Source: Branchiostoma floridae
Taxonomy: Eukaryota > Chordata > Leptocardii > Amphioxiformes > Branchiostomatidae
Length of the DNA stretch: 64,000 bases
Assembly (NCBI RefSeq): GCF_000003815.2
Contig: NC_049993.1
Coordinates: forward strand, 18,844,621-18,908,620
Direction of reading: 5' to 3'
Every line of letters starts with the position of its first letter. Position 1 is the first letter of the stretch. Below are positions 12,474 through 55,710 of this stretch, one piece after another. The translations under genes and the position numbers were made by a program. The notes under the pieces are model-generated. The model searched no databases and had not been told where the DNA came from. It saw nothing but the letters and a program-made list of their open reading frames with translations.

Positions 12474-12800
12474 CTAATGGTGTTGTAAGTACTGAGGCAG
12501 CAGGGATGTGTAGGTGTGCTGCTGCTGACCACTGGGGTTCCTCAGGGGTTCATAGTGGTTTGGTCTAGCAGCTGTGCTAACCTGTCTGTTCTCATATTTG
12601 TGGCACTGAGGGCCTTGTCTTGCTTGTGGACGGGCACCATTTTCAGGGCCCTGGGAGGGGGATGGAACCTCATATCCATTGTTAAAGCTGCCAAGATACT
12701 GTATGTTGCCTGCACCTTGGTATGGGCTTTCCCGTTGGTTGATTTCTGGTATGGTGTCATACACTGGGTCATCAGTTGGAACATTATAGACATGCTGGCT
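12474..12800 (-). pseudogene. out-of-frame remnant of the LRR receptor cytoplasmic tail
   Basis: This stretch codes in another frame for the tail that is intact in the second copy: the YDTIPEINQRESP, GYEVPSP, HYEPLRNP and YTSLLPQYLQHH blocks are all present and open to a TAA. A net 2-nt insertion near 12795-12808 puts it out of frame with the upstream receptor. The remnant has no further stops and is close to the second copy, so the break is recent, or it is an allele or sequencing difference. Confidence 0.85.
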
Positions 12801-12805
12801 GTTAA

Positions 12806-14761
12806 CTACATACCAGAATGGGACATTTGGGATTGACTGTTTATGTTTGTATGCCCCCTTATCTGAACATGACCATTGGACTTGCCTGTGGGGTTTTGGT
12901 TACTGGGGCCAGCACTAGAGGCTAGCGCATAAGTACGCTCCCTTTCCTTCCTCTTATATATGCACCTCTGAGTCACTGCAAAGGCAATAGCAGAAATGAT
13001 AAATATTCCAAGAACAACAAACAGAGTAGCAAGCACAGGCATGGGCAAGGAGATGGCACTGATATTAGGGCCCGGGTTGCTTTCTGTTGTTGTAGTCTCC
13101 TCACAGATCATGTCTTCAGGATTTACATCTGAAATGTTTTGCCCTGCAAGGTTAGCAGGACCAGCACATCTGATCTGGTCTTCAAATGGGTAAGACCCGT
13201 TCATCTTCTCTCTAAAGGGAAGCATCTTACAGTCACACTGCCAGGGGTTGTTGTCAATCCTAACACTTGGACCATAATATAACCAAGTGTAATATTCCCT
13301 AGCTGGTACAGAGGCCAGTATGTCATATGCCATTACTGGGAGTGTCTCCATTGTGTTATAGTTTAATTTAAGTTCTGACAGCACTGAAGTATTCAAATTT
13401 GATAAGGCTTCTAAAGGGAAAGTGCTGATGTTATTATAACTAAGTCCCAGTTCTTCAAGGTGAAGTAGATTCCCAAATGTGTCAGCAGATATGTTTCTGA
13501 TGTTGTTGTTGGCAAGATTTAGAATTCTAAGCTGTGTTGTGCCATTGAAGGTGCCTGCCTCGATACTGTGGATGTCATTTCTGCCAAGGTTAAGCCTCTC
13601 TAGATTATCAAGTCCCACAAATATGTCAGCTGGGAGAGTAGTAAACTGGTTAGAGGAAAGAGACAAGGTTTTTAGGTTCACAAGTCCCACAAATATGTCA
13701 GCTGGGAGAGTAGTTAACCGGTTATAGGAAAGAGACAAGGATTGTAGGTTCACAAGTCCCACAAATATGTCAGCTGGGAGAGTAGTTAACCGGTTATAGG
13801 AAAGAGACAAGGTTTGTAGGTTCCCAAGTCCCACAAATATGTCGGCTGGGATGGTTCTGATGTTGTTGTTTTCAAGATTTAGAATTCTAAGCTTTGTTGT
13901 GTCATTGAAGGTACCTGCCTCGATACTGTGTATGTCATTTCTGTCAAGGTAAAGCCTCTCTAGATTACCAAGTCCCACAAATATGTCAGCTGGGAGAGTA
14001 GTTAACTGGTTTAAGGAAAGCCACAAGGTTTGTAGATTACCAAGTCCCACAAATATGTCAGCTGGGAGAGAAGTTAACTGGTTCCAGTTAAGATTCAAGG
14101 TTTGTAGGTTCCCAAGTCCCACAAATATGTCAGCTGGGAGAGTAGTAAACTGGTTTGACCTAAGATCCAAGGTTAGTAGGTTCCCAAGTCCCACAAATAT
14201 GTCAGCTGGGAGAGTAGTGAACTGGTTTAAGGAAAGCTCCAAGGTTTGTAGGTTCCTAAGTCCCACAAATATGTCAGCTGGGAGAGTAGTTAAGTGGTTA
14301 TGGTTAAGATACAAGCGATGCAGATTACCAAGTTCCACAAATGTGTCAGCTGGGAGAGTAGTTAACTGGTTTGACGAAAGATACAAGATTCGTAGGTTAC
14401 TGAGTCCCACAAATAAGTCAGCTGAAAGATTAGTTAACTTGTTATTGAACAGGTACAGTTGAGTTAGTCTGGTTAAGTTGTAGAATGTTTTGTTTTGGAT
14501 CATGGAGATCTGATTGGAATGAAGATCTAACATTATCAAGCTCCTGTACCTTGAGAAATCAGACTGACTTATGTTTGTGATGGTATTCTTCCGTAAGTGA
14601 AGCCAAGTGATGTCTGTAGGCAGGTCCTGAGGAACACTGGTGAGGCCTCTGAAGCCGCATTGACAGTATGATGAACAGCTGCTGCTGCAGGCTGCGGTCG
14701 GTCCAGCTTCCTGCAGGATGATCAGCAGAAGAACCAGCATCCTCCTCGCTTTGTTGGACAT
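12806..14761 (-). CDS. LRR transmembrane receptor, copy 1 (truncated tail)
   Basis: Single-exon minus-strand gene of 651 residues from the ATG at 14761; the frame extends three codons upstream only by using TTG. Order: signal peptide (1-24, MLVLLLIIL core), cysteine-rich LRRNT (CSSSCSSYCQC), 17 LRRs (54-463, mostly 24 residues, type LxLxxNxxTTLPADIFVGLGNL) plus a partial terminal LRR, LRRCT (NNPWQCDC with Cys 509/511/532/553), a very short Thr-rich stalk, one membrane helix (about 571-596, MPVLATLFVVLGIF) and a basic stop-transfer RCIYKRKERER. The tail stops after about 50 residues at SHSGM because of a frameshift. Architecture suggests a cell-surface recognition receptor resembling LRR/VLR-like proteins. 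The ligand is unknown. It is nested antisense between ANKRD13C-like exons and is a paralogue or allele of 42649-45399. Confidence 0.9.
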   Translation of the reverse strand: MSNKARRMLVLLLIILQEAGPTAACSSSCSSYCQCGFRGLTSVPQDLPTDITWLHLRKNTITNISQSDFSRYRSLIMLDLHSNQISMIQNKTFYNLTRLTQLYLFNNKLTNLSADLFVGLSNLRILYLSSNQLTTLPADTFVELGNLHRLYLNHNHLTTLPADIFVGLRNLQTLELSLNQFTTLPADIFVGLGNLLTLDLRSNQFTTLPADIFVGLGNLQTLNLNWNQLTSLPADIFVGLGNLQTLWLSLNQLTTLPADIFVGLGNLERLYLDRNDIHSIEAGTFNDTTKLRILNLENNNIRTIPADIFVGLGNLQTLSLSYNRLTTLPADIFVGLVNLQSLSLSYNRLTTLPADIFVGLVNLKTLSLSSNQFTTLPADIFVGLDNLERLNLGRNDIHSIEAGTFNGTTQLRILNLANNNIRNISADTFGNLLHLEELGLSYNNISTFPLEALSNLNTSVLSELKLNYNTMETLPVMAYDILASVPAREYYTWLYYGPSVRIDNNPWQCDCKMLPFREKMNGSYPFEDQIRCAGPANLAGQNISDVNPEDMICEETTTTESNPGPNISAISLPMPVLATLFVVLGIFIISAIAFAVTQRCIYKRKERERTYALASSAGPSNQNPTGKSNGHVQIRGHTNINSQSQMSHSGM

Positions 14762-19215: not shown

Positions 19216-19386
19216 AAATTTTTTGCAAGTACGGGGTTTACTATTTCTTAAATGGTGCTTTAGTTTGCCTTCAGCTGTGGCATTTTGTGTAATGTGTAAA
19301 TTTTGTCACAATACATTATTATTAATATGCATACTCAAAAAAATTAACACCAATCATTTATAGGAACAAAATTGTGAAACATTTCT

Positions 19387-35499: not shown

Positions 35500-37072
35500 G
35501 AGTAGAGTAGAGTAGAGTAGAGTTCTTCAGGCTCAGGTAGGAACTGCAGTTCCAGTTTAGGCCGCTCTTTCCTTCTAAGTCACTGACATCCCAGGTAATT
35601 GCGGATCGTCCAGAGCTCTAAAGTTGTAATACACGCTGTGTTTCTTCATGTGGTTGTCTAGTCTTTCCTTAAAGCAGTTTACACTTGGGGATGTCACCAC
35701 CGGCTCTGGTAGATTGTTCCACCATGAGACAACTCTGATGCAGAAGAAGTGTGATCTTCTGTTACTTTTCGACGCTTGTCTCTTAATCCGGAGGCAGTGA
35801 CCCCTTGTTCTTGTGCTCGTATTTAACTCAAACGGACATGAGGTGTCGTATATCCCATGTAGGAACTTGTAGGTGTTTATCAGGTCCCCCCTAAGTCTCC
35901 TATAGACCAGTGTAAGTAAGTTTAGAGCCTTCAGTCTCTCTTCATAGGGTAGACTTCTAAGGCCGGGAACTCTCTTCGTTGCTCTCTTCTGTACCCTTTC
36001 TAGATCCAGGGCCAGCTTCCATGTGTAGGGGGACCATGCAGGAGCCCCATACTCCAGCTGGGGACGAATGAGCGACTTATATAGGAGTAAGAACACCTCC
36101 TTATCTACATAGGCAAAAGTCCTCCATATGAGACCTGCGATCTGATTTGCCTTATTACAAATGTTGGATATATGTTTGCTGAAACTCAGCTCCTTGTCAA
36201 CAGTAATACCCAAGTCCTTTTCCTGTTGTGTAAATTCCAGTAGGGTACGAGTCTCATTATCCAACATTGAGTATGTGTAGTCAGGGTGTCCTTTTCCCAG
36301 TCTTATTACTGTACATTTCATGGGATGAAAGCTCAACTGCCATTTTATTGCCCAGTCCTGAAGTACTTGAAGGTCCCTCTGCAATTTGTTGCATTCTTCC
36401 CTTTGTACTACTGACCTATATAACTTAGTGTCGTCTGCAAAGAGCTTCAGCTTACTCTGCACAATTTCCGGCATGTCGTTGACAAATATAGTGAAGAGCA
36501 CCGGACCCAGGACGCTCCCCTGGGGAACTCCGCTTGTTACTTCGGCCCATTCTGATTTTTCCCCATTGACACAGAGTCTCTGTCTCCGTCCTGACAAAAA
36601 AAATTCAATCCAATTTAAAAGGTTTCCCGTGATCCCGTAGCTTTGTATTTTGGCTAATAGTCTCTTAATTGGTACTGAATCAAAAGCCTTGCGGAAGTCG
36701 AGATAGACCGCGTCAACGGGTGTTCCTCGGTCAAGCCACTCTGTCCACTCGTCTAAGCACTCCAACATCTGAGTGGTAGTAGATCTTCCTGGCAAGAAGC
36801 CATGTTGGTGTGGTGTAAAGAGATTGTTTACCTTCATATGCTTGACAATGGCGTCTCTAATCAACCCTTCCAGAATTTTTCCTACTACTGAGGTCAGGCT
36901 AACCGGGCGGTAGTTACCGGGTGATTTGTTACAACCTTTTTTGTAAATTGGCGTGACATTAGCGGTTTTCCAGGCATCGGGGAGTTTGCCTTCTTGTACA
37001 GTCTTGACATAGAGAATCTGCAGTGGAACCGCCACTCCCCCAGGGTGTCCGCCAATTCCTTTAACACTCTTC
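35500..37072 (-). mobile_element. 5'-truncated CR1-like LINE insertion
   Basis: Present in unit 2, absent from unit 1, whose uninterrupted sequence is at about 8490-8500. The minus-strand 3' end finishes in a pentanucleotide microsatellite (CTCTA repeated, plus-strand 35500-35523), as expected of CR1-type elements. CTATA at 35495-35499 and 37073-37077 is a possible short target duplication. The 5' end is truncated within the RT domain. Confidence 0.85.
35575..37035 (-). pseudogene. CR1-like reverse transcriptase (5'-truncated)
   Basis: 485-486 codons open to the 3' end. RT landmarks: WKTANVTPIYKKG (22-34), NYRPVSLTSV (41-50), AVYLDFRKAFDSVP (motif A, about 109-122), SGVPQGSVLGPVLF (motif B, about 168-181), KLFADDTKLY (motif C catalytic pair, about 197-206), then LEYGAPAWSPY and the CR1-type C-terminus with VVSWWNNLPEPVV. 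The apparent first Met is a GTG, not a start. Upstream the coding sense continues one frame over as RVLKELADTLG, so a 1-nt frameshift lies near 37037-37040 before the truncation point. The endonuclease domain is missing, so this copy cannot be autonomous. Confidence 0.9.
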
Positions 37073-37082
37073 CTATAACGTT

Positions 37083-38856: not shown

Positions 38857-39030
38857 GGTGTTCAGCACTAAGGACAGGTATATTTACCTGTGTGTGGATG
38901 GTGTTCAGCACCAGGGACAGGTGTGTTTACCTATTTGTGAATTGTGTTCAGCACCAGGGACAGGTGTGTTTACCTGTGTGTGGATGGCGTTCAGCACCAG
39001 GGACAGGAATGTTTACCTATGTGGATGGTG
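38857..39030 (+). repeat. 43-bp minisatellite, plus orientation (unit 2, left part)
   Basis: About four units, interrupted by the Penelope-like insertion and resuming at 40366. Confidence 0.9.
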
Positions 39031-39307
39031 GATGAAGGAGAATTCTTTGTACACAACCAGTGGGTACTTACATAGCTTACGTTTCGATGTCTCTCAGACA
39101 CCTTCGTCAGAGCTTCTAACTGGAGTTCTGCTTCTCACCGCTATATGTAGCCGATGTAGGTGGCGCTTTTGCGGTGAGAAAACAATCCCAAACGTGGCTT
39201 AGTTTGTATCCCCCCTCGTCCCGGTTCATCACTGGGGTTGACTTTCTTATCCAGATGGCCTCCTTAATCCACCGTGCCCGCCTATTGTCTTCCCTGTCTA
39301 TGACCTA

Positions 39308-39641
39308 TGTCAGCAAGAGCTCACAGACCACCTTAACAGCATCGACCCCACCGGCAACATACAGTTTACGTTTGAAGAGGAGAAGGAAGGCACACTACCT
39401 TTCCTTGACACCCTTCTAGTGCGTAAGGAGGATGGCACAGTGAAACTTTTGGTGTACAGGAAGAGTACGCACACGGACCAATACCTAAACTTCCAGTCCC
39501 ACCACCCTCTGCACCAAAAGTTAGGAGTAATCCGTACCCTGTTGGACCGATGCAACACCGTCACCACTGAAGACCAGGACAAAGAACAGGAAACACAACA
39601 TGTCAAGAGAGCCCTCGCACGCTGTGGCTACCCCCAATGGG
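39308..39641 (+). pseudogene. Penelope-like RT, C-terminal part
   Basis: Open frame running into the N gap: ELTDHLNSIDPTGNIQFTFE, then LPFLDTLL, VYRKSTHTDQYLNFQSHHPL, HQKLGVIRTLLDR and HVKRALARCGYPQW. The FLD...YRKxTHTDxYLxFxSxHP block is diagnostic of Penelope-like element RTs. No RT catalytic motif precedes it; the left side is the inverted arm. Confidence 0.9.
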
Positions 39642-39741
39642 NNNNNNNNNNNNNNNNNNNNNNNNNNNNNNNNNNNNNNNNNNNNNNNNNNNNNNNNNNN
39701 NNNNNNNNNNNNNNNNNNNNNNNNNNNNNNNNNNNNNNNNN
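39642..39741. other. assembly gap (100 N)
   Basis: Exactly 100 unknown bases inside the Penelope-like coding region, a conventional placeholder length. ORFs running through it are not real observations. Confidence 1.
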
Positions 39742-40245
39742 GGGATAGCCACTGCAGTCAAACCCCAAACAACACTGAGAAGTCTGTTAGTGCATCCTAA
39801 GGACAGACAGGAGGACTTAGCCAAAACAGACTGTGTGTACAGAATCCCGTGCCAGAGCTGTGATCAGGTGTATATTGGTGAAACAGGAAGGACTTTTGGG
39901 ACGAGGTTAGAAGAACACAAGAAAGAAGCCAACAACATAGATGCCACAAGATACACAAGATCACAGAAAAGACTTGCGCTCAAAGAAGAAAAGAAGTCGG
40001 CAGTTACAGACCATATCGCCAGGAACAATTGCGTAATTGACTGGGAGGGGGCGAAGGTCATAGACAGGGAAGACAATAGGCGGGCACGGTGGATTAAGGA
40101 GGCCATCTGGATAAGAAAGTCAACCCCAGTGATGAACCGGGACGAGGGGGGATACAAACTAAGCCACGTTTGGGATTGTTTTCTCACCGCAAAAGCGCCA
40201 CCTACATCGGCTACATATAGCGGTGAGAAGCAGAACTCCAGTTAG
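39742..40245 (+). pseudogene. Penelope-like GIY-YIG endonuclease domain
   Basis: Open frame from the gap to a stop at 40243-40245, continuous in sense with the RT fragment. It has CVYRIPCQSCDQVYIGETGR, the diverged GIY-YIG core with the Cys pair used by animal Penelope-like elements, then TFGTRLEEH (catalytic Arg), DHIARNNCVIDW and RWIKEAIWIRK (candidate catalytic Glu), ending near WDCFL. The domain itself looks intact. The element copy is incomplete upstream. Confidence 0.9.
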
Positions 40246-40365
40246 AAGCTCTGACGAAGGTGTCTGAGAGACATCGAAACGTAAGCTATGTAAGTACCCA
40301 CTGGTTGTGTACAAAGAATTCTCCTTCATCCTATATTCTACCAACCTGATGAAACTATTTTCGTA

Positions 40366-41165
40366 TGTGGATGGTGTTCAGCACCAAGGACAGGTGTGTT
40401 TACTTGTGTGTTGGTGGTATTCAGCACCAGGGACAGTTGTGTTTACCAGTTTGTGGATTGTGTTCAGCACCAGGGACAGATGTTTTACCTGTGTGTGGAT
40501 GGTGTTCAGCACCAGGGACAGGTGTGCTTATCTGTGTGTGGATGGTGTTCAGCACCGGGGACAGGTGTGTTTACCTGTGTATGGATGGTGTTCAGCACCA
40601 GGGATGGGTGTGTTTACCTGTGTGTGGATGGTGTTCAGCACCAGGGATGGGTATGTTTACCTGTGTGTGGATGGTGTTCAGCACCATGGACAGGTATGTT
40701 TACCTGTGTGTGGATGGTGTTCAGCACCAGGGACGGGTATGTTTACCTGTGTGGATTGTGTTCAGCACCAGGGACGGCTGTGTTTACCTGTGTATGAATG
40801 GTGTTCAGCACCAGGGATGGGTGTGTTTACCTGTGTGTGGATGGTGTTCAGCACCAGGGACGGGTATGTTTACATGTGTGTTGATGGTGTTCAGAACCAG
40901 GGGCAGCTGAGTTTACCTGTGTGTGGATGGTGTTCAGCACCAGGGACAGGTGTGTTTACCTGTGTGTGGATTGTGTTCATCACCAGGGGCAGGTGTGTTA
41001 ACCTGTGTGTGGATGGTGTTCAGCACCAGGGGTAGGTTTTTTCCTGTGTGTGGATGGTGTTCAGCACCAGGTACAGGTATGTTTACCTGTGTGTGGATTG
41101 TGTTCAGCACCAGGGGTAGGTTTTTTCCTGTGTGTTGATTGTGTTCAGCACCAGGGCCAGGTATG
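40366..41165 (+). repeat. 43-bp minisatellite, plus orientation (unit 2, right part)
   Basis: About 18-19 units with the same core as 10423-10935 and more unit variants (CCAGGGATGGGT, CCAGGGGCAGGT). Confidence 0.95.
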
Positions 41166-42516
41166 TTCTGGTTTGGCCTGGTCACACTTTACTTTAGAAT
41201 TGATCTATGTATGAACATACCAGCTCCACAGGCACACACAGACTGGAGACCACTTGGCCAACACAGTTGAGTTTCCCTCAGTATTTAGCATTTATTGAAA
41301 ATATGGCGGTACATTACACAGATTAGCCAGATAGCAAGGCTTGTATTGGCTACCCACAGAGATATACAGACAATAATACACTACTATACTAAAACACACC
41401 TACTAAGTGCAGCATCGGTGAGCTGCACTTGTTAATATGCTGTAAATTTCTGCTACATTTTGGGCATTGCAAGATGTCAGTCCTTTGTCTAATATAAGAG
41501 GCAAGTTCTTTTACAATATTGTTAGCTATAAGCTATAACAGCCAAGCAAGGAATGTACATGCAGTTGTGAACTACTTTTTCATATAATTGTATGTAAGCT
41601 ATCATAAGATTATATATGGTATTTAACTCACTAAATTCAATCTATTAGTCTAGACTGTCCATTATTACATCACAATAATCAATTTCCGACAGAACTATAT
41701 GAAAATTATACAAACAGTCAAGCACATATTAAGTAGAGAAAATATGATTAAGTAAGTTGTGCCTGCAAAATTGCTTTTCATTGCTCTTTTGCTCCAATTT
41801 TTGAGCTCAGTCACAAGCTCTTTCCAATGACTATAGTTTATAATTCATCAACTAAGCAATTCCTTTCACTGGGAGTATGGTAATGACCTTGTTCTATTTT
41901 TCATGCAATTGTATGTAATTTGATTATATGTTCTTTAACTCATCAATTAGCTACTAGATTATCCATCATTAATATTGAAATTATTTTACAGTTTCTATAG
42001 TGAAGGTGCAACTATAAGAACATTCTTAATTTCAGCAAAGTAACCCTTTAAGTTAACCATGAATTTCAGTACTTATATTAAAAATTATTACCAGTTATCA
42101 AAATGGTTCTATCCCCCGTTCAAAGTGGTCCATCCCTACTAAAAGTGATAAAAATATCATTAAGATTACTTATTCCACACCGCAGTTTGTAACATATTTG
42201 CCTTTGCGTATAAATATCACAGCAGATATACAATATTGTTGACTTAAAAGAAAAGGATCCATTTTGAAATAACATGTCAGCTTTATAGAGTTAAGTAGAA
42301 CCTTCAGCCAAGTCTCCTGGTCACAATTTATGTTTCTTCAAATACTTTTATATTATCATAATTACTGGACAGGTATGATATACAGTTGTAATATATTTCT
42401 AAGTGTCTATTGGGGTGGGGTGGCTATTTTTTGTCTCTAATATCCTCCTGTGTGGTAACTATATTTGGTGATACTTAAAATACATTGTGTTTTTTTTTTC
42501 ATTTATAGGAAACCCT
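41166..42516. other. AT-rich spacer downstream of LRR copy 2
   Basis: Matches 10936-12342 with many small indels. No coding or RNA feature recognised. Confidence 0.5.
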
Positions 42517-42522
42517 TTTAAT
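42517..42522 (-). terminator. variant poly(A) signal of LRR receptor copy 2
   Basis: ATTAAA on the minus strand about 130 bp past the stop, in place of the AATAAA of copy 1. Confidence 0.45.
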
Positions 42523-42648
42523 TCTCAAGTCCTCCATTTCAGTGATCTGGTGTGCTTTACTGGCAATAGGTGTTTTGAGTCCTACTCAGGGCCAGTCATT
42601 GTTTTCAGAGAGTTAATCCTTAAAGCAATGGTTTAACTTAGGTCTTAT

Positions 42649-45399
42649 TTAATGGTGTTGTAAGTACTGAGGCAGCAGGGATGTGTAGGTGTGCTGCTGC
42701 TGACCACTGGGGTTCCTCAGGGGTTCATAGTGGTTTGGTCTAGCAGCTGTGCTAACCTGTCTGTTCTCATATTTGTGGGACTGAGGGCCTTGTCTTGCTT
42801 GTGGACGGGCACCATTTTCAGGGCCCATGGAGGGGGATGGAACCTCATATCCGTTGTTACAGCTGCCAAGGTGTATGTTGCCAGCACCTTGGTTTGGGCT
42901 TTCCCTTTGGTTGATTTCGGGTATGGTGTCATACACTGGGTCATCAGTTGGAACATTATAGACATGCTGGCTGTTTCCTGTACCAGAATGGGACATTTGG
43001 GATTGACTGTTTATGTTTGTATGCCCCCTTATCTGAACATGACCACTGGACTTGCCTGTGGGGTTTAGGTTACTGGGGCCAGCACTAGAGGCTAGCGCAT
43101 AAGTATGCTCCCTTTCCTTCCTCTTATATATGCACCTCTGAGTCACTGCAAAGGCAATAGCAGAAATGATAAATATTCCAAGAACAACAAACAGAGTAGC
43201 AAGCACAGGCATGGGCAAGGAGATGGCACTGATATTAGGGCCCGGATTGCTTTCTGTTATTGTAGACCAGCCTGGGTTAGAGCCAGCAGTAGGTGTGTTG
43301 GTGGGTGTTGGGGACAATGTTGGTACCTTTGATATTGACTTTGTTGAAGTACTGAACATAGACCAGCCTGGGTTAGAGCCAGCAGTGGGTGTGTTGGTGG
43401 GTGTTGGGGACAATGTTGGTACCTTTGATATTGACTTTGTTGAAGTACTGAACATAGACCAGCCTGAGTGAGAGCCAGCAGTGGGTGTGTTGGTGGGTGT
43501 TGGGGACAATGTTGGTACCTTTGATATTGACTTTGTTGAAGTACTGAACATAGACCAGCCTGGGTTAGAGCCAGCAGTGGGTGTGTTGGTGGGTGTTGGG
43601 GACAATGTTGGTACCTTTGATTTTGACTGTGTTGAAGTACTGAACATAGACCAGCCTGTGTTAGAGCCAGCAGTGGGCATGCTGCTGGGTGTTGGGGGCA
43701 ATGTTGGTACCTTTGTTGTTAGCTTAGCTGACTGATGAAAAGTAGACAAGTTAAGGGTAGAGTCAACAACATGTTTTTTGGTCAAAGTGGAGTAGGCTGG
43801 TGTCGTCTCCTCACAGATCAGGTCTTCAGGATTTACATCTGAAATGTTTTGCCCTGCAAGGTTGGCAGGTCCAGCACATCTGATCTGGTCTTCAAATGGG
43901 TAAGACCCGTTCATCCTCTGTCTAAAGGGAGCCATCCTACAGTCACACTGCCAGGGGTTGTTGTCAATTATAACACTTGGAAACCAAGTGTAATATTCCC
44001 TAGCTGGTACAGAGGCCAGTATGTCATATGCCATTACTGGGAGTGTCTCCATTGGGTTATTGTTTAATCTAAGTTCTGACAGCACTGAAGTATTCAAATT
44101 TGATAAGGCTTCTAAAGGGAAAGTGCTCATGTTATTATAACCAAGTCCCAGTTCTTTAAGCTGAAGCAGATTCCCAAATGTGTCAGCTGGGATGGTTCTG
44201 ATGTTGTTGCGTGAAAGGCGTAGAACTCTAAGCTGTGTTGTGTCATTGAAGGTACCTGCCTCAATACTGTGGATGTCATTACTGCCAAGGTCAAGCCACT
44301 TTAGGTTACCAAGTCCAACAAATATGTCAGCTGGGAGAGTAGTTAACTTGTTAAGGTTAAGACGCAAGCTTTGCAGATTACCGAGTCCCACAAATACGTC
44401 AGCTGGGAGAGTAGTTAACTTGTTATGGTTAAGACGCAAGCTTTGCAGATTACCGAGTCCCACAAATATGTCAGCTGGGAGAGTAGTTAACCTGTTATGG
44501 TTAAGATCAAAGCTTTGCAGATTACCGAGTCCCACAAATATGTCAGCTGGGAGAGTAGTAAACTGGTTAAAGGAAAGATCTAGGGTATGTAGGTTCCCAA
44601 GTCCCTCAAATATATCAGCTGGAAGAGTAGTAAACCGGTTTGAGTAAAGATACAAGGTTTGCAGATTACCAAGTCCCACAAATATGTCAGCTGGGAGAGT
44701 AGTGAACTGGTTTGAGCTAAGAGACAAGGTTTGTAGGTTCCCAAGTCCCACAAATATGTCAGCTGGGAGAGTAGTGAACTGGTTTGAGGAAAGATACAAG
44801 TATCTCAGATTACCAAGTCCCACAAATATGTCAGCTGGGAGAGTGGGTAACTGGTTTGAGGAAAGAGACAAGGTTAGTAGGTTCCCAAATCGTCCCACAA
44901 ATATGTCAGCTGGGAGACTAGTTAACCAGTTTGAGGGAAGAGACAGGTACTGCAGATTACCCAGTCCCACAAATATGTCAGCTGACAGACTACTGGTGGT
45001 TACCTGGTTCCCGTTAAGTCTCAAGTACTGCAGATTACCCAGTCCCACAAATATGTCAGCTGGGAGACTTCTTAACTGGTTATTCCTCAGGTCCAGGCTA
45101 GTTAGGCTGGTTAAGTTGTGAAATGTTTTGTTTTGGATCATGGAAATCTGATTGGAACGAAGATCTAATCTTGTCAAGCTCCTATACCTTAAGAAATCAG
45201 ACTGACTTAAGTTTGTGATGGCATTGCCCCGTAAGTCAAGCCAAGTGATGTCTGTAGGCAGGTCCTGAGGAACACTGCTGAGGCCTCTCCTCCTGCAGTA
45301 ACACCATGATGAGCAGCTGCTGCTGCAGGCTGCTGTCGGTCCAGCTTCCTTCAGGATGATCAGCAGAAGAACCAGCATCCTCCTCGCTTTGTTGGACAT
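42649..45399 (-). CDS. LRR transmembrane receptor, copy 2 (full length)
   Basis: Single exon, 916 residues from the ATG at 45399. Signal peptide 1-24; LRRNT (CSSSCSSWCYC); 16 LRRs at 54-442 plus a partial terminal LRR; LRRCT with Cys 485/487/508/529; Ser/Thr/Pro stalk 530-724 with five 32-residue repeats (KVPTLSPTPTNTPTAG then GWSMFSTSTKSIS); one membrane helix about 727-752; basic anchor; tail of about 160 residues. Tail tyrosines lie in VYNVP (814), VYDTI (823), GYEVP (851), KYENR (877), HYEPL (891), TYTSL (905) and QYL (912). YEPL and YTSL are 10 residues apart, an ITAM-like spacing; YENR fits a Grb2-type YxN site and YNVP a YxxP site. Many LRRs are nearly identical in DNA. Likely a surface receptor signalling through SH2 proteins; ligand unknown and signalling is inference. 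Confidence 0.92.
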   Translation of the reverse strand: MSNKARRMLVLLLIILKEAGPTAACSSSCSSWCYCRRRGLSSVPQDLPTDITWLDLRGNAITNLSQSDFLRYRSLTRLDLRSNQISMIQNKTFHNLTSLTSLDLRNNQLRSLPADIFVGLGNLQYLRLNGNQVTTSSLSADIFVGLGNLQYLSLPSNWLTSLPADIFVGRFGNLLTLSLSSNQLPTLPADIFVGLGNLRYLYLSSNQFTTLPADIFVGLGNLQTLSLSSNQFTTLPADIFVGLGNLQTLYLYSNRFTTLPADIFEGLGNLHTLDLSFNQFTTLPADIFVGLGNLQSFDLNHNRLTTLPADIFVGLGNLQSLRLNHNKLTTLPADVFVGLGNLQSLRLNLNKLTTLPADIFVGLGNLKWLDLGSNDIHSIEAGTFNDTTQLRVLRLSRNNIRTIPADTFGNLLQLKELGLGYNNMSTFPLEALSNLNTSVLSELRLNNNPMETLPVMAYDILASVPAREYYTWFPSVIIDNNPWQCDCRMAPFRQRMNGSYPFEDQIRCAGPANLAGQNISDVNPEDLICEETTPAYSTLTKKHVVDSTLNLSTFHQSAKLTTKVPTLPPTPSSMPTAGSNTGWSMFSTSTQSKSKVPTLSPTPTNTPTAGSNPGWSMFSTSTKSISKVPTLSPTPTNTPTAGSHSGWSMFSTSTKSISKVPTLSPTPTNTPTAGSNPGWSMFSTSTKSISKVPTLSPTPTNTPTAGSNPGWSTITESNPGPNISAISLPMPVLATLFVVLGIFIISAIAFAVTQRCIYKRKEREHTYALASSAGPSNLNPTGKSSGHVQIRGHTNINSQSQMSHSGTGNSQHVYNVPTDDPVYDTIPEINQRESPNQGAGNIHLGSCNNGYEVPSPSMGPENGARPQARQGPQSHKYENRQVSTAARPNHYEPLRNPSGQQQHTYTSLLPQYLQHH
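43265..43744 (-). repeat. five 96-bp in-frame repeats coding the receptor stalk
   Basis: Units start GACCAGCCTGGGTTAGAG (plus strand) at 43265, 43361, 43457, 43553 and 43649. The middle units are almost identical and the outer one more diverged. The whole array is missing from copy 1, whose LRRCT joins the TESNPGPNIS segment almost directly. Confidence 0.95.
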
Positions 45400-45493
45400 A
45401 CTGGCCAAGGTGTAGCCTTATGATATCATAACAGAGATAGGATGATTTACATAATTCTTTTTATTTATTTATTATCTTATTCAGCTAATATAG

Positions 45494-46153
45494 TATATTT
45501 TGTATTTTTGTGAAGGTTAGACATCCAGGAATCGTTAGAATTGAAGACGAATAAATCTTTACTTCTGGATACTTTATTTTTATACAGACGTTTCGGAAGG
45601 CATCCGCCTTTCTTCCTCAGTGAAAAGAAAATGAAGACAAACAATTTCTTGGAACAAGGAATAATTCTTATGTTCTAAATAAACAAAAAAGGTAACGGCT
45701 GAGGTGTTCTAAAATAAACAACACAGGTAACTATTGAGGTGTTCTAACAATGTTCTAAACAAACAAAAAGGTAACTGACAAGGTTCTAGAATAATAGTTT
45801 ATTGAAGTGATTGATGGTTTTATGTATACACTTATCATGTTTTAATATTCTATTCCTTGTTAGTTCATTTTACTTTGCTTGAATTATTCTAGAACCTTGT
45901 CAGTTACCTTTTTGTTTGTTTAGAACATTGTTAGAACACCTCAATAGTTACCTGTGTTGTTTATTTTAGAACACCTTAGCCGTTACCTTTTTTGTTTATT
46001 TAGAACATAAGAATTATTCCTTGTTCCAAGAAATTGTTTGTCTTCATTTTCTTTTCACTGAGGAAGGAAGGCGGATGCCTTCCGAAACGTCTGTATAAAA
46101 ATAAAGTATCCAGAAGTAAAGATTTATTCGTCTTCAATTTTATATTTTGTATT
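45494..46153. mobile_element. 634-bp hairpin insertion with 13-bp TSD (Penelope-like ends)
   Basis: TATATTTTGTATT at 45494-45506 and 46141-46153 flanks 45507-46140; unit 1 has one TATATTTTGTATT in uninterrupted sequence (about 14861). The insert is nearly one long hairpin: about 45539-45798 is the inverse of about 45882-46138, with an 85-bp loop. The arm has ACTGAGGAAG...CCGAAACGTCTGTATAA, resembling the 3' ends of Penelope-like elements. It lies upstream of LRR copy 2, where a promoter might be. No ORF. Confidence 0.85.
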
Positions 46154-46930
46154 AGTCAAGTAGCGCATTGCTAAATATAAAGCCTTCTACTCAAAACATG
46201 AAGATAAGAGTAAAGAAAAAAAAAGTTCCCAATCCGTATTTGCAGGATTTACAATGAAGCCAGTTTGGGAAAACTCAAGGTTTCAAAAGGGTGAGATTAA
46301 TATTCAAGAGCAAGATAACAGTACGGGAATAACGTTTCACAGTTCTTTCAGAGTCCAAACGTCTTTTACATGTATCAGGTACCAAATTTAAGATTTGTCG
46401 GTTCTGTGGGTATAGGATATCCACGGCATCACCATATATCGACCTAGCATGCGAAAAAACATCAGCATCACGCAAAAATAAACAGATCTTTCTGCACGCC
46501 ACACCGTACGCTGTTTGTTCAAAACTTCCAATCCGGCCGCTGATTGGCCCCTGACAAATCAGGCAAGCTTATTAATATTCATAAGTAAGGCGCCCCTAAT
46601 ACCCGTTGTCTGTGGCTTAATTGTCAGCGGTGATATCGCAAGGCATTGCTGCGATAGTCAACCCTGAGTGGGCGGGTGGGTCAGAACTAATGTTGAAAAT
46701 TTTTCGTCATTTGGCAACGATATTGGGTTGTGGAACTCTAGTTCAAAGTGTGCTTCACTAAATGTAGCTAATTTTTAACATTTTCAACATTTAAAAATAC
46801 AAGTGGGTAAGATTGAAAAAGATTGTACCACCTGCCAAATTGAAAGACTCAGCAATTTTGTTACTTAAAACAAACTTCTATGCAGCCATGAGTTACCAGT
46901 GCATGTAATGTGTAGTCAACATTAATTTCA
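46154..46930. other. upstream region of LRR copy 2, distal part
   Basis: Nearly identical to 14870-15638. No coding feature; promoter elements could not be assigned. Confidence 0.45.
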
Positions 46931-47963
46931 TTAAAGGGACATATTGTGAAAAATAATGTCACTATATTTGGTCATTTTTCATTACACTGCACAGCAATAT
47001 TTACAACGTATGGATACGACTTTGCTGTGCCGTGAGGACATCTTGAAATATGCGCACTTCCCTCCAAACGCTTGAGGTCTCAAAACACAGTTTTTCGCCT
47101 ATGGGGATTTACATGGTTAAAGACCCCAAAGTGAGGTGGTTCGACGACTCAAACCTATAGTAAGGTGCAGATACAATTTACGTGAATTTAGTATGTTGAA
47201 GTTGAGGGTACTGTCAAGCTACAAAATATCTGAAAATGAGCATAGATTTGCTGGCTCGTTTTTCTATAAAAGACACTTTGATTTGACCCCCAGTGGAGAT
47301 CATGGAACTGCAGGTGGCGAACAGTAAGTGCCAGTAACCGTATCAAGGCGCAAATTCCTGCCGGCCGAAAAAGCAACGTAATCCAACTTATACAGTATGA
47401 AGTCAACACCGAATGTATTCCTCTACCATTCACCACAGATTCCACCTCGCTGTCGTGCACGGAAGAATAAATATGGCCTTTGCAACTACTGCGGTGCACT
47501 ATTTTAACCCGAACTACTTTGGGGGACGGGGGTCGCGGATGAATACTGTGTTTTGAGACCTTATTGAGTTGCCCGCCATTTTATCCAACTTTCTGACGAA
47601 CCAAGGCGCGCTCTAGAACGTGTCCGGTGGTTCGCTCGAATCNNNNNNNNNNNNNNNNNNNNNNNNNNNNNNNNNNNNNNNNNNNNNNNNNNNNNNNNNN
47701 NNNNNNNNNNNNNNNNNNNNNNNNNNNNNNNNNNNNNNNNNNGACCCCAACGGTCGTTTCGGATATCTAGGACTGACTTACTTCCGGGTATGCTACCCGG
47801 AAGTAAATAAATTTGGTCGCATCTTACTTTGGCACGGTTAATTAGCGCTAGAAAGCTGATAAAATGACGCAGATGAGTTGGAAATAAGTCAATTTGACTT
47901 AAGATTTTAAAGTTCAGAACATTTGAAATTTTGGCGCCATAACTTTACAATATATCCCTTTAA
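46931..47963. mobile_element. TTAA-flanked non-autonomous DNA element (unit 2)
   Basis: Second copy of 15639-16612, with TTAA at 46931-46934 and 47960-47963 and the same TIRs. Interrupted by a 100-N gap. Confidence 0.75.
47643..47742. other. assembly gap (100 N)
   Basis: Placeholder gap. The flanks match 16348 and 16395 of unit 1, where only 46 bp lie between, so the true gap is probably about 46 bp. Confidence 1.
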
Positions 47964-48241
47964 GGTCCCAGTCATACACTAACTTCAAGTTGTTAAAAGT
48001 CAATTGTGAGTGGTCAGAAAAAGCATAATGAATCTAAAATATGTAAATAAAATGAGTAATGACTGCCAAAACACTTAATGGGTAAATATGCATAAAATAA
48101 CTGTTGGTACATATTAACCTTATACCAAATATGCACATAAGGGCCTTAATTGCATAACTGATATGACAATGCCAACTCTTATGTGGTGCATGATGGGAAT
48201 TTAAAAAAATGTAAGTGTGCAAGGAATTTAATCACCATGCT

Positions 48242-49763
48242 TTAAGGAGGTATGTCCAGAAATGGGGTAAATGTACGAAGTTAGTGTGTACGAAGTTGTA
48301 CGAACTTGTACGAAGTTAAAGGTAGATATAGACCGTAATCGGTAAACTTCGGAAGTTTTAGGTGACGTCATCTAACTTCGTACAGGTAGGCAGGGTTGGT
48401 GTACGATGTACGATGTACGAAGATAACAAATCTAACTTCGTACAGGTAGGCAGGGGTTGGTGTACGATGTACGATGTACGAACTTAACAAATCTAACTTC
48501 GTACAGGTAGGCAGGGTTGGTGTACGATGTACTATGTACGGAGTTAACAAATCTAACTTCGTAAAGGCAGGCAGGGTTGGTGTACGATGTACGATGTACG
48601 AACTTAACAGATCTAACTTCGTACAGGTAGGCAGGGTTGGTGTACGATGTACGATGTACGAAGTTAAAAAATCTAACTTCGTACAGAGGGGCAGGGTTAG
48701 TGTACGATGTACGATGAACAAAGTTAACAGATCTTCAGTACAGATGGTCAGGCTTAACGTTGTACGAATCGTTAGAGTCGAATTAAAAAAAATGAGAGGT
48801 CTTATTAAAACACCATATTGAACGATGAAAAAATTACAAACTTTGATAAATAAGACCTATATCTATGTTCATCAAGTGCATTGAAGAATGGTGATCACGT
48901 CAGAAATACAAAGTTGACAGTTCTAAGACCGTACAGAAGGCACTTGAATAAGTTTTAAATAATAAAAAATAACAAAATTTAGAATGATGGAAATAGTTCC
49001 CATAAATGTTATCGTTCTCACTAAGGCATAATGGTATACAACAGTCACAAAAATGCTACCTAATGTTAGTAAAAAAAAAAATGATCTTTACTAAAACTCA
49101 TTTCATATAAGTCATTCTATAGGAACCTCTTACTTTTATGAGATGGTTGATTCTAACGTTATCTGGCCTAACACCACTGTTTGTTACCAATAGGGGTGTC
49201 AGGCAGGAGTGTAAACTAAGCCCTAGACTTTTTAATATTTTTATAAACGATCTAGTTCCGAGTTAGATGATACAGATTGTTCTCCACCCGCACTCAATAA
49301 TTGGTGATCGATGATGTGCTTAACGCGTGGCTGACCATGTGCGATAGGTGAAAGTAGAATAGAATACTGCGTACGGAGTTAGCATAACCCACAGCATAGT
49401 CAAAACATCTTGACTTCGTACACCAGGCCCGACCCATATACGAAGATAGCATACCCACAAAATAGAAAACATTTTAACTTCGTACATCGTACTTCGTACA
49501 TTAGGTCCGCCCCATGTACGAACTTAGCATAACCCACAAAATAGAAAACATTTTAACTTCGTACATCGTACTTCGTACATTAGCTCCGCCCCGTGTACGA
49601 ACTTAGCGTAGCTACGTCACAGATAATTGTCAACGTTTCCCGAACTTTGCCGACAGCGGTTGTCGGAAGTTGTCGGAAGATAGAAGTTGTCGGAAATTAC
49701 GTGTGACGTAGGCTGATCCGAACTTCGTACATTTCACCCATTTCTGGACATGTATGGCTTTAA
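48242..49763. mobile_element. TTAA-flanked foldback element with GTACGAAGTT arrays (unit 2)
   Basis: Second copy of 16890-18533 with TTAA at 48242-48245 and 49760-49763. The left array (48275-48770) has more units than in unit 1, the right array (49375-49620) fewer, and the 106-bp core duplication is single. The RT fragment at about 49130-49320 is frameshifted. Confidence 0.8.
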
Positions 49764-49995
49764 GATATACGAAAGCACTATTATTAAATATTTCATGACA
49801 ATATCAAAGTCAATTCAATATTTATGTAAAAAAGAGAGAATCTCAGTAAGCTGGCTGAAAAGATTGGAGAACATTCAGATTGAAGAAGGAATGTAGGACT
49901 GATACTAATATGGTAATTGTCTTGTTAATATGTTAACACAATTTTATTTACCCAAGAAATCGTCTTTCTAGTATTAGTATTAGGCTTGTATAAGT

Positions 49996-50445
49996 GGAAA
50001 TCCTGGAAAGTTTGTGTGAGATTTTTTAACTTGTCGATGAGTGAAGAAAGGCTGATATCAGAAGTTGACAGTGCCAATTAACCAAGTTCCTCCTGACATA
50101 TTCCTGTTTGACATTTCCTCGTCGCCATTTTGCGATGACGTATGAAGATTGATCAGACGGTTCTTCCCACAATTTTTCCTGTCATGGACAAAGAAATACC
50201 TGTACACTGCATCATGTAGGGTAACAGAGAAGGGGTTGATTTACTCACCTTAGTATGGTTGGTATCAATATACTTGTTTTCAGTCTGCGAACGCCTTTAA
50301 TGTTTCAGAGGGTCCTTCAACTCAGCGCTGAGGTGGCTGGACTACCTGAGGTTACATAGAGACACTGGGTTCAGTTGACAGTGCCTAATGTGTTACATGC
50401 CCACATGTACAGGTGATACATGTGTGCCATAATGAGTTACATAAC
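49996..50445. repeat. recurrent 0.4-0.55 kb repeat, copy 5 of 7
   Basis: Near-identical to 18765-19215 with the same minus-strand donor-like block. Confidence 0.75.
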
Positions 50446-50617
50446 AAAATTTTTTGCAAGTACGGGGTTTACTATTTCTTAAATGGTGCTTTAGTTTGCC
50501 TTCAGCTGTGGCATTTTGTGTAATGTGTAAATTTTGTCACAATACATTATTATTAATATGCATACTCAAAAAAATTAACACCAATCATTTATAGGAACAA
50601 AATTGTGAAACATTTCT

Positions 50618-51632
50618 TTGGCAGTGCCATTTTTAAAATGGAAGATTCATGGGGCCTCTAAACTTTCAGGTAACTTTCTGCATCTAAACTCAAATATAAC
50701 TATCAGTGGTAAACCTTTCTTTTCACAAGTATTTCTTAGTAGGGGGGTCATATTTGTAAACGACATATTAGACTCAGAAAAAAACTTCTTATCATATGTT
50801 AATTTTGTTACAAAATTTGGAGTAGTGTGTCCTGAATTTAAATAAATTTCTGCTATTCCCCCATTTTGGAAGGCTAAGATGAAACTGAATTCTCCAAGTT
50901 TGGGTGTCTGTCTTCCTGTATGTAGAAACATAGGCTGGCTTCATAACTGTAATAGTAATAAGTTTCTGTATTAATTCTCCATGAACGAAGCCAGTCTATG
51001 GGGCTCATCTGAAAGAATTAAACTTTCTTGGGAAGAGTATTTTGACACCCCACTACCATGGCAAAATATATAGTTTACCTTATAAACTTTCGATTGATTC
51101 ATATACTCGAATATTTCAATATAAACTACTATTTAAATTTTTACCTTGCAATAAAATATTATATTTATGGGGTCTGATAGACTCCCCATTATGTAGCCTC
51201 TGTAACGAGGAAGAAGAAACAGTCGTCCACCTTTTTTGGGATTGTTGTGTAACTTCAAATTTTTGGCGTCAGGTGGACGAATGGTTTTTCAATATAAATG
51301 ATACTCATTTGCATATTAATGCACTCAGTATAATTTTCGGCATTTCTAGTGATCGTTGCTCCGTTCTGTTGAATCTTATCCTGCTTTTAGGCAAAATATT
51401 TGTTTTCAAAAATCGTAAGCATTCTTTGAATTTGTTTGAATGCTTTCATATCCTATGTTTCATACTTTTATAAATTAGAAATAAACATAGCAATCCGGCA
51501 AGGCAAACTGCATAAACACAGGGGGAAGTGGGGAAACTTAAATAAATTATTTTCTGTTAGAACCTGATATCTTAAATAAATGTATAACGGGGGCCGCCCT
51601 AAGACGGTCCCCGTCGTAAGACGGTACGGTTT
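50618..51632 (+). pseudogene. Tx1/L1-like LINE ORF2 C-terminus (unit 2)
   Basis: Second copy of 19387-20400 with the same in-frame stop after VCPEFK and the same SPLCSLCNEEEE zinc-knuckle block. A small insertion after NLF shifts the end of the frame (ECFHILCFILL), so the C-terminus differs from unit 1. The 3' hairpin (CTAAGACGG) is at about 51600-51630. Confidence 0.75.
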
Positions 51633-53181
51633 TTTTTGCTGATCTTATTATCCATAAGTACACTGTGTTAGTTGTCACTGACTATGCTGATTACAAAGGT
51701 AAAAAAATTAAACCAAGTCCATGTACACAGCTTTAATTTGCATTCCAAGTATACTTTAATATATTTCCTTCATGTTTTTTTTTTTTAAGAGCAGAATTCT
51801 AACAGTAATGTTGACAGTGCTGAATCACTGCGGTCACAGGCCTCTGCATATTGGCGGCTCGTGTAGCTAACTATACGAACTCATCCAAGCAGTCACACAA
51901 CTGCATGATACACATAAATAAAGCTCCATAAAACACTATGAATATGGGTCTTCAAATGTTTGTTGAGTAGAAAACCAACCAAAAGGAAGCGACATAAACA
52001 TTGTCACCATTGTACTCCCAAGGGAGTGTGGCCGTGAAGGTGGCAGACTAGAGAACGCTCCAAAGATTTATTTGACTGTAACAAATGATTCGTGCTGTCT
52101 ATGAAAATAAGACTTGACAGAGAGATGTAGATGATATTTTCATATAATCAGACAGAGTTTTGTTGATGTTGGCGGTGTCTTTTTTTCGTAATGTTTTTTT
52201 TAGTCGGGCATTCACAATCAGTGCATTCAGCCCATTGCCCGTAAAACATCAGCTGGATTGTTCTAGGTACAGCCTTCCTCATGTGAGACAAGAGGTACAT
52301 ACAGTCACGATTTTACTGTCAAAAGAAAGCTAAAATATCATACTATTAATTTTTTTCTGTGTACTTAGATTTACCACTTATTTCTGAAGAGAGCAAAATT
52401 TAAAAAAAAGCGTACCGAGTTAGGCACACTGTCCAGCGTAGTACAAAATTGGAAGGTTACATACACGAAATTGTCTCTCAGTGTTTGCCGCTTGTAACAC
52501 GCAGCGCGAAAGGTTCATGAACCACATGAATGCATTTCTTATTCAAGTATGTTGTTCAAATCTATGAGTAAAAAATTCAGTCATCAAAATTTGACCACTC
52601 TCAGGCATCTAGCGATGGAGCGCCATGAGTTTGAGCGCAAGAAAAAGCGTACCGTGTTGGGGCACCTCCCGTTAGTAATGTTGTTGAATGAATATGGGCA
52701 AAGGGGTTTAGGACAAACATTAACTGTTGTTACTGGTTTTTGCTTTTATTTCGTGGTTTTTACATGTGCTTTGTTAACGTATTTGTAGCTGCCATGCTTT
52801 CTTTTTGTTGTTTGTTTTGCAAAAAGTAATAAAGAAGGATTAAAAAAAAATTTCAGGTAACACCACAGATGTATGTAATATGTATGTAATGTATATAGAT
52901 GGCATATTAAGTTCCAACATTACGCTGCATTGTCGTTGCACATAATGAAATCATTACAAACTTACGAGTGACCGTGCAGCTCATTCTGCATGGTCCCAAA
53001 CCATTTACCATAGGACCACTCACTGCACGATCCCACAAACCTTTGGGTGCTTGTGGTAATTATAGCCCTAATCTTGTAATTGTTAGCCTGGAGTCCAGCA
53101 TTGTTCGTTTTGTTCCGCTCCCAAAGGCAGGACTCCAGGCTAGTAATTGTTTCCTCTTTGTCAGGTTAACACAAGCACTAT
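51633..53181. other. repeat-derived non-coding stretch (unit 2)
   Basis: Matches 21995-23472; lacks the unit 1-specific block of about 1.5 kb. ORFs here (for example 52549-52788) have no recognisable family and change between units. A-rich tail near 52838-52855; palindrome at 53084-53141. Confidence 0.5.
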
Positions 53182-53186
53182 TTGAC

Positions 53187-53720
53187 ACTTGAAATCTCCT
53201 TCCAAGTATTCTAATGTATGAGTTTTTTTGATATCCTTTAAACTTAAGTAAGATTTTTGACTTGATAACAAAACAAGTTAATATCAGAATGTGGCTGACC
53301 TGTATCAACCAAGTTCCTTCTGATATGTTCCTGATATGTTCCTGTTCCACTTCCTCATTGCCATTTTGGTGTGACGTTTGAACTAAACATTTGATTGCAC
53401 AATCTTGACAACTACTCTTTTGGACAAAAGATATCAAATATGATGTAGGGTCACAGAGAAGGAATTGATTGACTCACCTCAGTATGTGTAATGCCAGTAT
53501 GCTTGTTTTCAGTCTGCAAACTCCTTGAAGTCTCAGTTTGTCTTAAGTGTGTCCTTCAACTCAGTGCTCAGGTGGTTGGACTACCTGAGGTTACATAGAG
53601 ACACCGAGTTCAGTTGACTGTGTGTTAATGTGTTACATGCCCACAGGTGATGTGGTATTTAGATGTGGCAGTCGTCTGAGCATAATGAGTTGTTTGGGAC
53701 ACATTGTAAGTTTACAGTTA
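53187..53720. repeat. recurrent 0.4-0.55 kb repeat, copy 6 of 7
   Basis: Near-identical to 25226-25760. Its left edge is the unoccupied TTGAC target of the transposon found in unit 1. Confidence 0.75.
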
Positions 53721-54361
53721 AATTTTTTGGCAAGTATATACTATTTTATATACATGCATGCTATGGCTTACAATTTCTTGAAGGGTGCTGCAAAATGCCT
53801 TCAGTTGTAGCGCCCTGTACAAAAAGAGGTCACAGAATTATGCAAACTCCATGTTTAATGCTAATCTTTTAAGAACAATTTTGCAAAATATTTATTGTGC
53901 TGAGGGACTTTTAAATTCCCCACTATTTCCTTCAGGCTCCCACAATGCTTGTACTAGTTCTTGCCATGATTTAGTATAATAGTTGTTTCCTAGTTGACTT
54001 GTCATGTGGACAAAAGTACTATCTTAGACCTTGAACCCCCCCCCCCCCCCAATAAAGCGAGCAGTTTATTATTGGACTGAGCAGAGCACTTTGGAAAAAT
54101 GCTTGTAGTCTTTTACAGCTTAAACTTACCTTTAAGCTAATAGTATCTGATATTTTGTGAAAAACTTCTTTGGTACTCAACATATCATATTGATCCCAGT
54201 GGGGGTCTTCGAGCCTCGTTAAAAGTAAAAAAAAATCTTCAGATGTATTGACTCTTAAGATCTTGAGATTTTTCATGAGAATCTTGAGATCATTGTATTA
54301 AGTCTCAAGATTCTTGAAAAAGATCTCAAAATTTTTTCCAGAAAGTCAGGCAGTGTAGAGG
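53721..54361. other. non-coding; poly-C run and AGATCTTGAGA palindromes (unit 2)
   Basis: Second copy of 25761-26393; nothing coding seen. Confidence 0.5.
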
Positions 54362-54649
54362 GTGCAGAAAAGTTCCAAAGCCATGACTCATTCTCATATG
54401 GACAAAAGGCTCCTGGGCGGTACCTTAAACAGACTGTTGCAAGGGTCAACGGAAGGTTACATTCATGCCTTTAAATATCAGAGTTACCAACCTAGGATTG
54501 ATATATTCAAAAATTCGTACTTTACCAGAACTATCGTAGAGTGGAATTTGTTATCACCAAGTACAGTAGGGGCATCTTCTCTGGGTAGTTTTAAAGAACG
54601 CTTGCAGATAGATGTGCAAAAGTTAGATGTGACGGGTCGTTCAGTGTAG
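54362..54649 (+). pseudogene. LINE (CR1-like) RT protein C-terminal fragment (unit 2)
   Basis: Counterpart of 26394-26690, here without the internal TGA: WNLLSPSTVGASSLGSFKER reads through to a stop after GRSV. Still only a C-terminal scrap. Confidence 0.65.
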
Positions 54650-55314: not shown

Positions 55315-55710
55315 CTAACATTTTTCCTGTTTGACATTTCCTTGTCGCCATTTTGTTGTGACGTATGAACCAAACATTTGATAGACCCATTCCAACTATT
55401 TCAGCTCACATGGACTAAATCTTCACCTGGTAACTTGTAGGGTAACAGAGAAGAAGTTGATTGACTCACCTTAGTATGGAAGGAAATATTCAGTCTGCAA
55501 ACTCCTTTAAGTTGCAGAGAGGTTGTCGTAACTGACTGTCTTTCAGTGTGTTCTTCAACTCTTCGCTGAGGTGGTTGGACTACCTGAGATTATTTTTATG
55601 GCTTTGAGTTTGGGCTGAAATGCCCACAGGTGATACCTGTGGTAGTTACTCGTTCCAACTGTCTGAACATAATGAGTTGTTTTTGTCTGCACTGCATGTC
55701 AGCTACCTTG
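55315..55710. repeat. recurrent 0.4-0.55 kb repeat, copy 7 of 7
   Basis: Near-identical to 27355-27745, upstream of ANKRD13C-like copy C. Confidence 0.8.

Follow-up and report, generated by a model that had tools for sequence, protein, structure and literature searches.

Does amphioxus possess a receptor in which a recognition ectodomain built of leucine-rich repeats (LRRs) and a phosphotyrosine signalling tail are combined in one polypeptide? The question is raised by a stretch of 64,000 nucleotides of the Branchiostoma floridae genome (assembly GCF_000003815.2, NC_049993.1, positions 18,844,621 to 18,908,620; hereafter the window), where an intact LRR receptor gene with a tyrosine-rich C-terminus, copy B, is accompanied by a tandem paralogue, copy A (Table 1). 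The results lead us to propose, with a probability of roughly 0.55, that copy B is one of a family of germline-encoded, single-pass LRR receptors that expanded in tandem in amphioxus and whose tails would act as phosphotyrosine scaffolds of the Grb2/Crk type.

The translation of copy B gives the order signal peptide, LRRNT cysteines, LRRs, LRRCT, a Thr/Ser/Pro stalk, one transmembrane (TM) segment and a tail. Pfam matched LRR_8 (E 9.8e-99) and LRRCT (E 1.9e-4), the latter above the cut-off in both copies, and gave a weak match to LRRNT (E 0.088); a TIR domain, the hallmark of Toll-like receptors, had no Pfam match at E up to 0.1 in either copy. The tyrosine motifs named in the original prediction (YEPL, YTSL, YENR, YNVP, YDTI and GYEVP) were all present in the minus-strand frame of copy B where it had placed them, with 10 residues between YEPL and YTSL. 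The tail starts upstream of the limits drawn there, at 43134, and this added part carries a further motif, YALA.

The family was delimited by a search of the 513-Mb, 431-contig genome with the tail as the query, at E up to 0.01, so that the counts are lower bounds. At least 41 pieces were returned, all on contig C15, which carries the window, and were grouped into 18 places: nine, including both window copies, form an array at 18.74-18.89 Mb, and nine lie at 19.40-21.51 Mb. The sequence was examined at all 18 places (17 from the genome, copy A within the window), and receptor sequence was found upstream at every place except L051, of which only a C-terminal remnant is recognisable. At 11 of the 18 places one open frame runs from the signal peptide through the C-terminal block (in L054 across a gap of Ns). 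VLR-type cassette assembly (VLR, variable lymphocyte receptor) was therefore ruled out, these 11 genes being already complete in the germline. L047 is broken within the LRRs and retains its tail, which brings the intact tails to 12; all tail counts below refer to these, with copy A, L039, L041, L049, L051 and L053 left out. A stop or frameshift interrupts the tail in copy A, L039, L041 and L053, and L049 has an N gap upstream and a replaced C-terminal block. These five places, where the tail is broken or lost after the TM segment in otherwise receptor-like frames, encode TM forms without the terminal tyrosine pair in frame and are possible decoy or paired receptors.

The ectodomain was modelled with AlphaFold2 from an 11-sequence alignment as an LRR solenoid (mean predicted local distance difference test score 90.4). 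A set of 65 unique repeats, 24 residues each, conforms to a pattern of the VLR consensus type, XLXXLXXLXLXXNXLXXLPXXXFX, in the arrangement LRRNT-LRRV-LRRCT. The concave positions 6, 8, 10 and 11 were the most variable (2.6-3.2 bits vs 0-2.15 elsewhere), and the pairwise ratio of nonsynonymous to synonymous rates (omega) was about 1.04 for these four vs 0.09 for the framework and 0.43 for the convex and loop positions, from pairs that are not independent and with silent sites near saturation at some positions. The LRRCT was nearly invariant across the 11 aligned ectodomains, with no hypervariable insert of the VLRA/VLRB type in a summary view. By sequence, the signal peptide, LRRCT and tail motifs are near-constant in the family, and the number of LRRs and the concave face vary. 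At the signal-peptide/LRRNT end, silent divergence was low as well, at 0.03-0.18 in the first ~54 codons and 0.10-0.40 beyond. An LRR receptor on contig C5, L002, has a quite different, tyrosine-free tail and nearly the signal peptide of the family (LLIILKEAGPTAAC), as if front ends had been exchanged between families.

Structural comparison placed the ectodomain among generic LRR solenoids: TLR3, SHOC2, Toll and LGR4 headed the best 50 of 1268 fold matches, where the only VLR sits in an LGR4-VLR chimaera. The short ectodomain of L048 gave sequence matches to VLRA and VLRB among many others in the 60 listed of 305 matches, and LRRTM and LRIG1 were also among the ectodomain sequence matches listed. 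The proposal of a VLR-like ectodomain joined directly to a phosphotyrosine-type tail thus stands as regards the single polypeptide and the VLR-type repeats, now seen in a family of 18 places; the word "directly" is inexact for copy B, in which a stalk of ~200 residues lies between the LRRCT and the TM segment.

The scaffold reading is carried by the tail motifs. Phosphorylated YxN is a binding site for Grb2-type and YxxP for Crk-type SH2 domains, and each of the 12 intact tails contains both. The number of YxN motifs per tail ranges from 1 to 7, a spread due in part to a module, SHKYENSQVI..., that recurs within some copies, and the tyrosine of the YDTI/YDTV-like sites is kept in all 12. Column identity was 0.93 for the seven Tyr columns vs 0.77 for all 173 core columns (p=0.003), and 0.92 vs 0.74 (p=0.007) for the five Tyr columns left when the 3′ block was removed; the tails are related and hence do not represent 12 independent cases. 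Selection was estimated by maximum likelihood with the GY codon model on a fixed tree topology. The 39 codons around YNVP/YDTI, YEVP and YEN gave an omega of 0.54 (likelihood ratio vs 1, p=0.004), and the remaining 111 tail codons 0.84 (p=0.14). This provides moderate evidence that the YNVP/YDTI, YEVP and YEN blocks are under purifying selection as protein, as judged from the codon alignment. A test on copies A and B only was dropped because their tails are too similar (96.6-97.7% DNA identity).

Several points weigh against this reading. The motif limits were drawn after the alignment had been seen, the motifs themselves having been named earlier from one sequence, and all 173 tail codons taken together are only weakly constrained (omega 0.83, p=0.07). 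Parsimony counts of nonsynonymous/synonymous changes, 37/23 in the motifs vs 353/132 elsewhere (p=0.09), point in the same direction as the likelihood estimate and are weaker; for Tyr codons outside the 3′ block the counts are 5/5 vs 385/150 (p=0.16). Moreover, the YNVP tyrosine is lost in 3 of the 12 tails, and short motifs recur by chance.

The terminal block that contains YEPL and YTSL evolves in another way. Its 23 codons gave an omega of 2.49, which does not differ from 1 (p=0.12), on a tree of length 0.94 vs 3.1-4.8, and parsimony counted 17 nonsynonymous and 3 synonymous changes. Synonymous changes per codon amounted to 0.13 in the block vs 1.03 in the remaining tail, and none of 100,000 draws of 23 other codons had as few. 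Since the silent sites are near-invariant too, the pair YEPL/YTSL, which resembles an immunoreceptor tyrosine-based activation motif (ITAM), gains no protein-level support; as read from the alignment, the block is conserved at the nucleotide level. The expectation that the tyrosine motifs would be conserved beyond neutrality is thus moderately supported, among 12 paralogous tails, for the YNVP/YDTI, YEVP and YEN blocks and not supported for the ITAM-like pair.

The block matches copy B at 64 to 69 of its 69 bases in 17 of the 18 places, L049 being devoid of it, and has sharp edges. Most probably, though with considerable reserve, short-tract gene conversion has homogenised it, or it serves as a nucleic-acid element, and the peptide is a passenger; this is compatible with a scaffold function of the remaining tail. 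Diversity per 10-nt bin over 17 copies (L049 left out) was 0.02-0.12 inside vs 0.21-0.58 outside, with 0.14 in the adjoining upstream bin, and the block is kept in broken copies: relative to copy B, A and L053 are identical, L039 and L041 have 3/69 differences, and L051 has 5/69. A genome search with the block gave 17 strong matches, every one at a family place, plus three at 76-77% DNA identity on contig C5 (25193390, 25193537 and 25730606), two of which lie 147 bp apart. Against a nucleic-acid role, the block has no RNA fold beyond chance (z -0.55), Rfam gave no match in window positions 42000-46000, and an overlapping gene was rejected, as no second frame stays long across all 17 copies. 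Block variants are partly common to related copies and block divergence tracks upstream divergence (r 0.58), pointing to slow evolution rather than full recent homogenisation.

An ITAM proper consists of two YxxL/I motifs 6-12 residues apart, carried in one chain by ITAM receptors such as FcgammaRIIA and Draper. The C15 family resembles these two in its single-chain pair and differs in a pair whose conservation lies at the nucleotide level. A pair of this kind occurs in 11 of the 12 intact tails, always as x10, vs 0.8-3.2% of shuffled tails (5000 shuffles for each of the 12; 1.9% for copy B), and in none of 13 other LRR-TM tails (six frames incomplete at the end of the sequence examined). Syk/Zap70 homologues are reported to co-occur with CARD-CC/Bcl10 across invertebrates, consistent with an ancient ITAM-Syk-CBM pathway (PMC5978004), and slp76, GADS and Itk are reported in amphioxus (PMC5431462). 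Nevertheless, a true single-chain ITAM receptor, with both tyrosines of YEPL-x10-YTSL phosphorylated and bound by the tandem SH2 domains of a Syk-type kinase, appears unlikely. Besides the omega and the 3 synonymous vs 17 nonsynonymous changes given above, with silent sites no less conserved than replacement sites, the tighter spacing of 6-8 residues was found in 0 of 12 tails. L052, the lone intact tail without the pair, has its second tyrosine replaced by cysteine (CTSL); the first is missing from just two copies, L039 and L051, each of them broken. At 5 of the 18 places, the pair has been lost, is preceded by a stop or is not in frame. ITAM-Syk signalling by the tail is therefore possible and unproven, the least supported step of the scheme. 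Conserved motifs in paralogues can reflect constraint on the DNA, and here it is the piece most like an ITAM that lacks protein-level support.

A composite alternative is rather doubtful. According to it, an element of 69-77 nt at the coding 3′ end would be kept as DNA or RNA, either as an anchor for paralogue conversion or unequal exchange or as an mRNA control element, and the ITAM-spaced pair would be incidental. The repertoire would have constant ends and a variable middle, and the tail-cut copies (A, L039, L041 and L053), together with the block-less L049, would be signalling-dead partners of the intact receptors, much as in vertebrate paired receptors.

An inhibitory receptor whose phosphorylated YxxL/V/I sites recruit SHP/SHIP phosphatases has a precedent in BbLcLRR of Branchiostoma belcheri, an inhibitory LRR-TM receptor phosphorylated by Lck at Y539, Y655 and Y690 (PMC8211107). 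By description, both share the order LRRNT-LRR-LRRCT-TM and a tyrosine tail; BbLcLRR differs in having a WSC domain and DDYATV, HDYSEV and HDYDDP sites, where the C15 family has YNVP, YDTI, YEVP, YEN, YEPL and YTSL. In favour of this alternative, the YDTI/YDTV-like tyrosine is universal in the intact tails. However, sites of the immunoreceptor tyrosine-based inhibition motif (ITIM) type, [SIVLT]xYxx[LIV], occur in 4 of the 12 tails and not in copy B, and no WSC domain was among the Pfam matches of the two family members scanned, which makes it improbable. Least probable of all is a non-immune family of cell-adhesion or developmental LRR receptors, to which the generic fold matches and the listed matches to LRRTM and LRIG1 would lend themselves, since recognition repertoires typically show what is seen here: genes arrayed in tandem, some of the copies broken, and a concave face that varies.

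Under the scaffold reading, ligand binding by the concave face would cluster the receptors, and the tail would be phosphorylated by a Src-family kinase, by analogy with amphioxus Lck and BbLcLRR. From the usual meanings of the motifs, pYxN would recruit Grb2-type and pYxxP Crk/Nck-type adaptors, thereby driving actin and, in gut or gill, a phagocytic or activating response. Published findings in favour are the Lck phosphorylation of BbLcLRR (PMC8211107), phagocytosis involving FrLRR and Grb2 (PMC10199209) and bacterial binding through the concave face of the VLR-like Bf66946 (PMC4731796). Differences in YxN number perhaps lead to different signal strength among the copies, and where stops or frameshifts truncate the tail, the receptor would be silent or a decoy. 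Additional docking may come from the terminal YEPL-x10-YTSL pair, its conservation being accounted for at the nucleotide level.

The original prediction spoke of an undescribed system, which proved too strong. From a list of at least 216 LRR matches, a non-random set of 16 LRR frames was taken (the 8 best matches and 8 picked), of which 3 without a TM segment were dropped; YxN or YED motifs were present in the tails of 11 of the remaining 13, in 6 of which the open frame reached the end of the sequence examined. One of them, L056 (C5:23143000-23147500), has a 275-residue tail in which repeat-like units hold ten YxN motifs. With the Lck-phosphorylated BbLcLRR already published (PMC8211107), the C15 family fits a class of amphioxus LRR-TM receptors with SH2-type tail motifs. 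A tyrosine tail looks common among amphioxus LRR receptors, and what looks special to the C15 family, judging by these sequences, is the combination and the terminal block. No receptor with this tail was named in the titles and abstract openings listed by searches of mainly openly accessible literature.

Other LRR proteins of amphioxus show partial likeness, so far as the portions of their reports used here describe them. B. floridae has 101 proteins with LRRNT and LRRCT, and one VLR-like protein, Bf66946, binds Gram-positive bacteria, the concave face being implicated (PMC4731796). Bf66946 and the other VLR-like proteins share LRRNT, 24-residue LRRV-type repeats and LRRCT with the C15 family; Bf66946 is short, with few repeats, and comes from a set chosen for lacking other domains, no signalling tail being described in that portion (PMC4731796). 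FrLRR of B. belcheri, likewise an LRR receptor, has been linked with Grb2 in phagocytosis in the gut; in contrast to the C15 family, it is fused to a folate-receptor domain and has a predicted glycosylphosphatidylinositol site, and the portion used describes no tyrosine tail (PMC10199209). Lamprey VLRs are alike in LRR type and variable concave face, whereas the C15 genes are complete in the germline without cassette assembly and have a near-constant LRRCT and a long tyrosine tail. With its 18 places on a single contig, the family offers a countable chordate set of receptors that unite a diversified LRR recognition end and a phosphotyrosine-type tail, and lets one test directly whether antigen-receptor-style signalling predates vertebrate lymphocyte receptors.

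Table 1. Positions of receptor features in the window (position 1 is its first nucleotide).
Feature	Position	Strand	Basis
Copy B, intact single-frame LRR receptor gene (916 codons + stop)	45399-42649	minus	open-frame list; Met at 45399
Copy B ectodomain: LRRNT cysteines, ~17 LRR strands, LRRCT (43962-43807)	43807..45327	minus	Pfam and AlphaFold2 model
Copy B Thr/Ser/Pro stalk, tandem repeat, 96-bp unit x 4.7	43263..43715	minus	repeat analysis; missing from copy A by alignment
Copy B TM-like hydrophobic segment VLATLFVVLGIFIISAIAFAV	43144..43206	minus	read from translation, without TM predictor
Copy B cytoplasmic tail, 161 aa, with YALA, YNVP, YDTI, YEVP, YENR, YEPL, YTSL	42652..43134	minus	translation
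Copy B YNVP	42960-42949	minus	
Copy B YDTI	42933-42922	minus	
Copy B (G)YEVP	42849-42838	minus	
Copy B YENR	42771-42760	minus	
Copy B YEPL	42729-42718	minus	
Copy B YTSL	42687-42676	minus	
Copy B stop codon	42651-42649	minus	
Copy B 69-nt block coding PNHYEPLRNPSGQQQHTYTSLLP, near-invariant as DNA in 17/18 family places	42670..42738	minus	genome search and alignment
Copy A, tandem paralogue, ectodomain and TM open	12474..14761	minus	open-frame list and alignment with copy B
Copy A 69-nt block, 69/69 identical to copy B, out of frame with its receptor	12495..12563	minus	alignment

The open frame of copy A ends ~50 residues past the TM segment, owing to two additional bases and a stop early in the tail, and the tail motifs other than YALA are out of its frame. 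A splice site at the frameshift was considered from a reading by eye only and rejected, the GT-AG distance being <25 nt. The two copies belong to a ~30-kb tandem duplication within the window, with blocks 76-99% identical. Some of these are 97-99% identical, so that a local assembly error is possible; mis-assembled haplotypes as the origin of copies A and B were not favoured, given nine related copies spaced 9-30 kb across 143 kb. Between window positions 14856-28001 and 46141-55954, blocks mostly 94-99% identical adjoin others of 76-84%, a hint of patchwise conversion or of differing ages. Both halves contain a minisatellite with a unit of ~43 bases by eye (GTGTGTGGATGGTGTTCAGCACCAGGGACAG...), of unequal length (40363-41167 and 10417-10949). 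Inverted arms of 277 bp, 100% identical (39030-39306 and 40331-40055), enclose a 100-N gap and frames with a GIY-YIG-like stretch (39030-40331), which we take to resemble a Penelope-like retroelement. A minus-strand frame of 501 residues at 35575-37080 presumably resembles the reverse transcriptase of a retroelement without long terminal repeats.

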